Source of the DNA: Spirochaetota bacterium
GTDB lineage: Bacteria > Spirochaetota > Brachyspiria > Brachyspirales > JACRPF01
NCBI GenBank assembly: GCA_016214035.1
Contig: JACRPF010000001.1
Span: forward strand, 62,001-126,000
DNA: 64,000 nucleotides
Direction of reading: 5' to 3'
The notes below the pieces were generated by a model. That model had not been told where the DNA came from, ran no database searches, and saw nothing but the letters and a program-made list of their open reading frames with translations. How positions within the stretch are numbered: position 1 is the stretch's first letter; each line of letters opens with the position of its first letter. The translations under genes and the position numbers were made by a program. Positions 48,768-50,692 of this stretch are shown one piece after another.

Positions 48768-48959
48768 ATGGCGCGTTCATGTGATATTTGCGGAAAAGAG
48801 ACCATCCGCGGCAATCGGGTAAGCCACTCGAACAGAAGAACGAGACGCGTGTTCCGCGCGAACCTGCGTACCGTGAAAGCGAATGTCAAAGGCACCGTGA
48901 AGACGCTGCGCGTCTGCACATCCTGCATCTCGGCAAACAAGGTCGTCAAAGCGGTCTAG
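48768..48959 (+). CDS. rpmB: 50S ribosomal protein L28
   Basis: 63 residues, the usual size. Motifs: MARSCDICGKETIRGNRVSHSNRRTRRVFRANL and VCTSCISANKV. Zinc-ribbon Cys pairs CDIC (5-8) and CTSC (near 50-53) mark the zinc-containing (C+) form. AAGGAGC lies 8 nt before the ATG. Followed 11 bp later on the same strand by the ispH fusion gene, so they may be co-transcribed. Confidence 0.95.
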   Translation: MARSCDICGKETIRGNRVSHSNRRTRRVFRANLRTVKANVKGTVKTLRVCTSCISANKVVKAV

Positions 48960-48970
48960 CTTAAAGCCGG

Positions 48971-50692
48971 ATGAAGATTGAGATCGGCAGCTATGCCGGC
49001 TTCTGTCGCGGCGTCAGACACGCCGTTGACCGCTCATTCCAGATCGCACGATCATCGCACATACCCGTAGTCACCGACGGGGAACTGATTCATAACCCCC
49101 AGACACTTGCGCTGCTTTCGGCACACGGCATACAACCGCTCACGGCCGATGAAACACTGAAGGACAAGACCGTCATCGTCCGGGCGCATGGCGTCACGCC
49201 GGCGCGGCTCGCGGAGCTGAAGAGCAATGCCGGCACCGTCATCAATCTCACCTGCCGCGACGTCGCGAAGGTGCAGGCGATAATAAAAAAACATTCGGCG
49301 GCGGGTGCCGCGGTCATCATCTTCGGTAAACCCGATCATCCCGAGGTCATCGGACTCACCGGTTTTGCACAGCAGGCGTACGTCGTACAACGCGCTGCCG
49401 ATGTCGATGCGCTGCCGCCGCTCGGGAATGTGCTTCTCGTCTCGCAGACTACGATGGAGCAGGAACAGTTCGCACTTGTCGCAACGCGCGTGCGGGAACG
49501 GTTCGCCGGCGCGGAAGTGGTAAACACCATCTGCGCCGCCACCGAAGAACGTCAGAAGGAAGTGAAGGAAATGGCCGCGCGTAACGACGCGATCATCGTG
49601 GTGGGCGGATCGAAAAGCTCGAACACAAAACGTCTTGTTGAAATAGCCGCGGCGCACGTGGATGCGTTTGCCGTTGAAACGGTAGCCGACGCGCTCGCTA
49701 TCGATATATCGCAATACACGCGCATCGGCATTACCGCGGGCGCATCAACGCCGGACTGGCTCATCGAGGAAGTCGCGGCTGCCGTGCGGGAAAAAGCGCT
49801 CAATCCGGTGATGCGGCTGGGGGAACTCGCCGTACGTTTCGCGGTATACAGCAATCTCTTCGTCGCCGCCGGGGTGCTCCTCCTCTCGTTCGCGGTTGCC
49901 GACATCAGCGGCATGCGGTATCCGCTCATATTCTCGCTCATCGGCGTGCTCTATTATTTTTCCATGTCGGTACTCAATAACTACACCAACAGACACACAC
50001 TGCGCCTGCACGATCGGCGCCGGTACGATTTTGTCTACCGTTTCCGCATTTTGTTCACGCTTGTGTTCGTCGCCGCCATTGCCGCAACGCTCATCGCCGC
50101 ACGCGCTATCAACCGCGACATCTTCATGCTCACCATGTTCTCGCTCACGCTCGGCATCGCATACAACATGAGCTTCCTGCCCATCCCCGAAAAATCACGG
50201 CTTCTCTTCTTCCGTCTGCGCGGCATCCCCGCGTTCAAGTCGTTCGTCATATCGGTTGCGGTGATGGTGCTTCTCAACGGCCTGCCCGCGCTCGTGGACA
50301 CCGGACGGGTGTTTGCGCACCGGTGGGATTTTTTCTTCTCGTGCCTCTTCGTGCTCACGCTGATACTGACCCGCCAGACGCTGCTCGAATTCAAAACCGC
50401 GCAGACCGACCGCATCAGCGGCGGCGGCGGACTGGTGACGCTCTTCGGCAGAAAACCGCTCCTGGTCATACTGTTCGCGCTTCAGGCCGCCGGCATCATC
50501 GCATTCATCATCGGATGCTCGGCCGGTATCATGCCGTACCGCAAGCTGCTCTATCTGGTGCCGCTCATCTGCAATATCGTGCTTATAGCGCTGGCATCGA
50601 ACGTTACGCTGCTCAGGACGCGCTTCGGCTATGAATTTCTCATCGATTCGAATTTATTCATTGCGGGTCTGATAGGACTTGCGCACCTGTAA
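48971..50692 (+). CDS. ispH: 4-hydroxy-3-methylbut-2-enyl diphosphate reductase (IspH) fused to a UbiA-like membrane domain, 573 aa
   Basis: Residues 1-275 form a complete IspH, the last enzyme of the MEP pathway (HMBPP to IPP/DMAPP). The three Fe-S Cys are Cys12, Cys95 and Cys188; substrate His are His41, His73, His123 and the proton-relay Glu125; VVGGSKSSNTKRL and GITAGASTPDWLIEEV are intact. Residues about 290-573 hold eight or so membrane helices. Two polar segments resemble the UbiA prenyltransferase motifs: SVLNNYTNRHTLRLHDRRRYD (336-353) in place of NDxxDxxxD, and TRQTLLEFKTAQTDRISGGGG (468-487) in place of the second Asp motif. The first motif lacks most of the Asp residues, so the C-terminal domain may be non-catalytic or modified. 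GGATG-type spacing from rpmB suggests co-transcription. Confidence 0.9.
   Translation: MKIEIGSYAGFCRGVRHAVDRSFQIARSSHIPVVTDGELIHNPQTLALLSAHGIQPLTADETLKDKTVIVRAHGVTPARLAELKSNAGTVINLTCRDVAKVQAIIKKHSAAGAAVIIFGKPDHPEVIGLTGFAQQAYVVQRAADVDALPPLGNVLLVSQTTMEQEQFALVATRVRERFAGAEVVNTICAATEERQKEVKEMAARNDAIIVVGGSKSSNTKRLVEIAAAHVDAFAVETVADALAIDISQYTRIGITAGASTPDWLIEEVAAAVREKALNPVMRLGELAVRFAVYSNLFVAAGVLLLSFAVADISGMRYPLIFSLIGVLYYFSMSVLNNYTNRHTLRLHDRRRYDFVYRFRILFTLVFVAAIAATLIAARAINRDIFMLTMFSLTLGIAYNMSFLPIPEKSRLLFFRLRGIPAFKSFVISVAVMVLLNGLPALVDTGRVFAHRWDFFFSCLFVLTLILTRQTLLEFKTAQTDRISGGGGLVTLFGRKPLLVILFALQAAGIIAFIIGCSAGIMPYRKLLYLVPLICNIVLIALASNVTLLRTRFGYEFLIDSNLFIAGLIGLAHL

Follow-up and report, generated by a model that had tools for sequence, protein, structure and literature searches.

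What does a multi-helix membrane domain do when it is joined, in one reading frame, to IspH, the enzyme that supplies a cell with isoprenoid precursors? The gene that raises this question lies at positions 48971-50692 (+) of the window, the whole 64,000-nucleotide stretch of Spirochaetota DNA analysed here, and is a single ATG-to-TAA frame of 573 amino acids. Residues 1-275 (48971-49795, +) are an IspH domain (Pfam accession PF02401, E=4e-77). Residues 276-573 and the stop codon (49796-50692, +) encode a membrane domain with ~9 predicted transmembrane helices, for which PF01040, AlphaFold and Foldseek point to the UbiA fold.

Rao et al. described both IspH-RPS1 and IspH-UbiA fusions in 2015 (PMC4746011). 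The initial annotation was thus mistaken in holding that no IspH of this architecture had been described and that known IspH fusions were limited to ribosomal S1. IspH-RPS1 resembles the window's protein in that IspH is enlarged by a C-terminal partner, but this partner consists of ribosomal S1 repeats, is soluble and is unrelated to UbiA. The 47 IspH-UbiA proteins of Rao et al. come primarily from Desulfobacterales and are all stated to occur in sulfate-reducing anaerobes; their UbiA part contains two DXXXD repeats (PMC4746011). These published fusions have been read as joining isoprenoid supply to use, on the grounds that both aspartate motifs are present. A full-text literature search with the term IspH-UbiA returned, outside Rao et al. 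(2015), only a mention in a reference list. The branch described here is new in that it is spirochaete-wide and mostly without DsrA, and its UbiA domain is degenerate yet strongly selected and occurs almost only fused.

Distribution of the fusion in Spirochaetota

Among the 296 Spirochaetota genomes sampled, we identified the full-length fusion in about 65, including single-contig ones. It is present in 2/2 members of the window's family (f1), in 28/29 members of a second family of the same order (f2) and in many other families; in the wider clade, all named records are Spirochaetota MAGs. A profile built from the membrane domain alone detects 68 genomes of this sample at E<1e-30, and in 65 of them the domain lies within a frame of more than 500 residues. 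Of the three apparent exceptions, G127 and G218 fall at contig ends, and G194 at contig ends plus an assembly gap. UbiA domains of this type are almost never found unfused.

That relatives carry the same joined frame bears on a doubt raised in the initial annotation, namely that a sequencing error near residue 280 had merged two genes. No stop codon or frameshift lies near that residue and the frame recurs in about 65 genomes, so we reject the sequencing-error reading. The related notion that two adjacent genes were joined by annotation or assembly error found nothing in its favour and has a negligible probability on the same grounds, since the apparent exceptions are themselves contig ends or a gap.

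Searched as a single protein against genome contigs, the window's domain returned no relatives; the plasmid collection gave no match to it and the viral contigs no relative. An alignment-based scan of genome contigs returned 22 Spirochaetota loci and one weak match in Nonlabens (29% over 68 residues, E=1e-4). Mapping the fused label onto the IspH tree takes 5-6 changes, a count that includes several rows on long branches and at least one ‘free’ row (L064) from a genome whose fusion is split by contig ends and a gap. With such rows, the tree is compatible both with one ancient fusion followed by losses and with several fusions.

The gene rpmB (ribosomal protein L28; Pfam accession PF00830, E=5e-17) occupies positions 48768-48959 (+), 11 bp upstream of the fusion gene, and the two are probably co-transcribed. 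The rpmB-ispH order is retained at all loci of the window's order (f1 and f2), including one (L035) without the UbiA domain. Members of the wider Spirochaetota clade have a different neighbourhood, in which type II secretion genes (J, K, PilM/L-like and M) and an unassigned N-like gene lie directly before IspH-UbiA. This run, seen from about 4 kb upstream of the fusion gene in L074-L094, is conserved at 22 loci. Because the neighbours differ between rpmB in the window's order and type II secretion in the wider clade, no common operon partner names a function.

A dsrA match over the cut-off was found in 11 fused genomes, a count of DsrA matches only and not of physiology. The window's genome has no dsrA match and by this marker differs from the hosts of the fusions of Rao et al., all of which are reported to be sulfate reducers. 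The spirochaete fusions extend the known distribution of IspH-UbiA well past sulfate reducers.

The IspH half

PF02401 spans residues 6-272 and scores 259.6 bits against a cut-off of 24.5; TIGR00216 is likewise over its cut-off (245.6 versus 187.85). We checked 11 residues associated with the [4Fe-4S] cluster and the substrate (Cys12/95/188, His41/73/123, Glu125, Thr160, Ser216, Asn218 and Ser259). All are present in the window's protein, in agreement with the initial annotation that this half has every catalytic residue, and all are identical in 62/62 aligned fusions. The window's genome encodes a single IspH, the fused one, together with one IspG. Among the genomes of the window's order, 31/31 have one IspH each, and in 30/31 it is fused. 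From the sole IspH and the IspG of the genome, we infer that the fusion gene supplies the cell's HMBPP reductase.

At the f2 locus L035 (1959-2888, +), the UbiA domain has been lost, the encoded IspH is 309 amino acids long and the next gene is unrelated. IspH is thus not strictly dependent on the domain, and this natural deletion suggests that IspH can work without the UbiA part.

A different fusion is found at L065 (1214-2848, +), where a GHMP kinase domain (Pfam accession PF00288, 1.6e-18) followed by a LytB domain (Pfam accession PF02401, 6.7e-80) forms an IspE-IspH protein of 544 amino acids. This gene sits between dxr-like and ispG-like genes. The same MAG also carries an IspH-UbiA fusion and thus has two IspH genes in one genome.

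A UbiA-like domain with a decayed metal site

Profile matches and a predicted fold support the assignment of the C-terminal domain as a UbiA homologue. Searched alone, the C-terminal 293 residues have PF01040 as their sole significant match (E=6e-5, 22.9 bits, short of the gathering score of 34.2). This match drops from the list when the whole protein is searched, so the UbiA match is weak on its own. PF01040 is matched by 28 of the 37 relatives in the alignment of the domain (best E=7.6e-10), with no other Pfam family at E<=0.01. A free-standing UbiA protein from another Spirochaetota genome, with both motifs intact (PF01040, E=1.8e-22) matches the fused-domain profile at ~1e-28. The AlphaFold model of the domain, computed only from the window and related loci found in our searches, has a mean pLDDT of 87.2 and a pTM of 0.85 (mean pLDDT of the full-length model, 83.9). 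Compared with the PDB by Foldseek, the domain model has only UbiA-family proteins among its first twelve matches, the best being ApUbiA (4od4, E=1.7e-5, TM 0.63/0.68). Our own profile-profile comparison with four UbiA enzymes gave scores so weak (E 7e-5 to 0.14) that it served only to set the motif register, and we draw no proof of homology from it; helix 1 lay outside the profile alignment. The initial annotation had seen a resemblance to UbiA and proposed a structure and profile comparison to check it. The PF01040 match, the intact free-standing relative and the modelled fold all agree with that resemblance, and the best matches are UbiA-family proteins and no unrelated fold.

The free-standing UbiA gene (L128, 193-1068, +) is the closest free relative of the fused domain that we found. 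It is adjoined by a second, split-frame UbiA-like copy (L128, 1119-1965, +).

The window's domain shares its predicted fold and helix count with the UbiA superfamily (AfUbiA, ApUbiA and chlorophyll synthase). It also keeps the first Asn of motif 1, the conserved Tyr and the last Asp of motif 2, but it lacks most of the Mg2+-binding aspartates and is joined to IspH. In AfUbiA, N68, D72, D198 and D202 bind Mg2+, R22 and K146 bind diphosphate, and Tyr139 functions in carbocation stabilisation; GPP binding was lost in each of the single mutants D72A, R22A, K146A and N68A (PMC4106721). We counted the corresponding columns over 62 aligned fusions, 31 from the window's side of the family and 31 from the wider side.

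The first aspartate motif (residues 336-344; 49976-50002, +), located from these columns and the UbiA profile alignment, reads NNYTNRHTL in place of the canonical NDxxDxxxD; only the first Asn is retained and there is no acidic residue. The N68 equivalent is retained (Asn336 in 60/62 fusions). At the D72 position, all 31 sequences on the window's side have Asn and 21/31 on the wider side have Asp or Glu. All 62 fusions have a hydrophobic residue at the D76 position. The second polar motif, RQTLLEFKTAQTDRISG (residues 468-484; 50372-50422, +), was placed by the same columns and by alignment with chlorophyll synthase. It contains T476xxxD480 in place of DxxxD, with Glu473 upstream. The canonical first Asp is Thr476 here, and only 2/62 fusions have Asp at the D198 position; the D202 equivalent is retained (Asp480 in 62/62). 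Arg468 is found in 61/62 fusions and an acidic residue at 473 in 58/62. Tyr398 (50162-50164, +), which aligns by inference with AfUbiA Tyr139, is Tyr in 61/62. The presumed R22 equivalent, mapped by eye, is Tyr in 30/31 sequences on the window's side and Arg in 27/31 on the wider side, and the presumed K146 equivalent, also mapped by eye, is retained on the wider side only, in most members.

These alignments support the loss of the canonical metal site. By the same comparison the decay is graded and most advanced in the window's branch, in which the D72, R22 and K146 equivalents appear lost. With most of the Mg2+/diphosphate site gone, canonical prenyl transfer is very probably gone as well. 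Residual catalysis is possible on the wider side, where most members keep the presumed Arg and Lys and 21/31 keep an acidic residue at the D72 position. The initial annotation had placed two UbiA-type polar loops at residues 336-353 and 468-487, noted that the first lacks the Asp of UbiA and suggested that catalysis may have been lost. The motifs lie where it placed them, and the suggested loss of catalysis is well supported by NNYTNRHTL and by the first Asp of motif 2, missing in 60/62 fusions.

The domain could instead be an active non-canonical prenyltransferase that is fed DMAPP/IPP, or a longer prenyl diphosphate, by the IspH to which it is joined. Its metal site would be rearranged (Asn336, Glu/Asp473 and Asp480) and resemble that of chlorophyll synthase, a proposal that fits the near-invariance of these three positions and of Tyr398. 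In chlorophyll synthase, too, motif 2 is missing its first Asp, and the NDFKSVEGD of that enzyme aligns at the same place as the second polar motif. For the fusions of sulfate reducers, Rao et al. favoured an active prenyltransferase on the strength of the two DXXXD motifs that those proteins have (PMC4746011). In the window's branch, however, motif 1 has no acidic residue and the diphosphate-binding Arg and Lys appear lost, and single losses at equivalent AfUbiA positions abolish GPP binding (PMC4106721). We consider an active enzyme unlikely.

Compared by description, the Desulfobacterales ‘Rosetta stone’ IspH-UbiA proteins share with the window's fusion an N-terminal IspH, a C-terminal UbiA-like domain of ~9 helices and a separate quinone prenyltransferase in the host. 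The window's fusion differs in its Spirochaetota host, in its degenerate motif 1 and in lacking the two DXXXD repeats.

The separate enzyme in the window's genome is a second, MqnP-like UbiA with intact motifs. In 29 f2 genomes, the PF01040 profile found no UbiA besides the fused one; it misses the fused domain in many of these genomes too, so other UbiA proteins are not proven absent there. A role as the menaquinone prenyltransferase is unlikely for the fused domain, given the intact MqnP-like gene and the f2 genomes that show only the fused UbiA.

Selection on the UbiA domain and its candidate role

Among 176 pairs of f2 sequences, the median dN/dS is 0.095 for the UbiA part versus 0.077 for IspH. 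The UbiA domain is under strong purifying selection and is no relic. Eight domain columns are at least 95% conserved over the 62 sequences, and three of these are AfUbiA active-site positions (hypergeometric P=0.001, in a test that assumes independent columns and was applied to related sequences at positions chosen after alignment). The inner polar residues Asn336, Tyr398, Arg468 and Asp480 are kept, as is Lys423.

A passive membrane anchor, which would merely localise IspH and whose remaining conserved polar residues would serve folding, is consistent with the lost catalytic acids and with the clean loss of the domain at L035, where IspH was kept. A purely passive role is hard to square with the strong purifying selection and with the retention of three positions of the active site. 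These positions are selectively retained despite ~20% overall identity, and one hydrophobic helix would be enough for an anchor. We regard this explanation as doubtful.

The reading that we prefer, at a probability of about 0.5, is that a functional IspH is held at the membrane by a pseudo-prenyltransferase with a ligand pocket, a domain that would position or sense isoprenoids and carry out no transfer. The C-terminal domain would descend from a Mg2+-dependent prenyltransferase and would hold IspH on the cytoplasmic membrane, at the membrane face beside prenyl-lipid synthesis. IspH is a cytosolic enzyme, and the pockets of UbiA proteins face the cytoplasm, as established for AfUbiA; the fusion would thus bring IspH to the pocket's mouth. 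The positive charge of two loops (residues 340-358 and 400-419) is consistent with an active site on the cytoplasmic side. The domain may bind an isoprenoid or a polyprenyl (phosphate) but neither transfer it nor ionise a prenyl diphosphate, and such binding might place IspH or adjust it to the level of product. In the spirochaete branch the fusion is kept, the metal site is lost and some hosts seemingly have no other UbiA. This combination challenges the supply-use reading of the published fusions and favours a role in structure, positioning or sensing.

The closest parallel is UBIAD1, a UbiA-fold protein that attaches to HMG-CoA reductase and governs the breakdown of that enzyme (PMC9314443, PMC8641950). 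By analogy, the built-in pseudo-prenyltransferase might sense membrane isoprenoids and regulate the final MEP-pathway step by feedback, a tentative suggestion that we consider rather improbable. The likeness, a UbiA-fold protein physically coupled to an isoprenoid-supply enzyme, is one of logic only and not of fusion descent: UBIAD1 and HMG-CoA reductase are separate eukaryotic proteins linked to the mevalonate pathway, and UBIAD1 is catalytically active.
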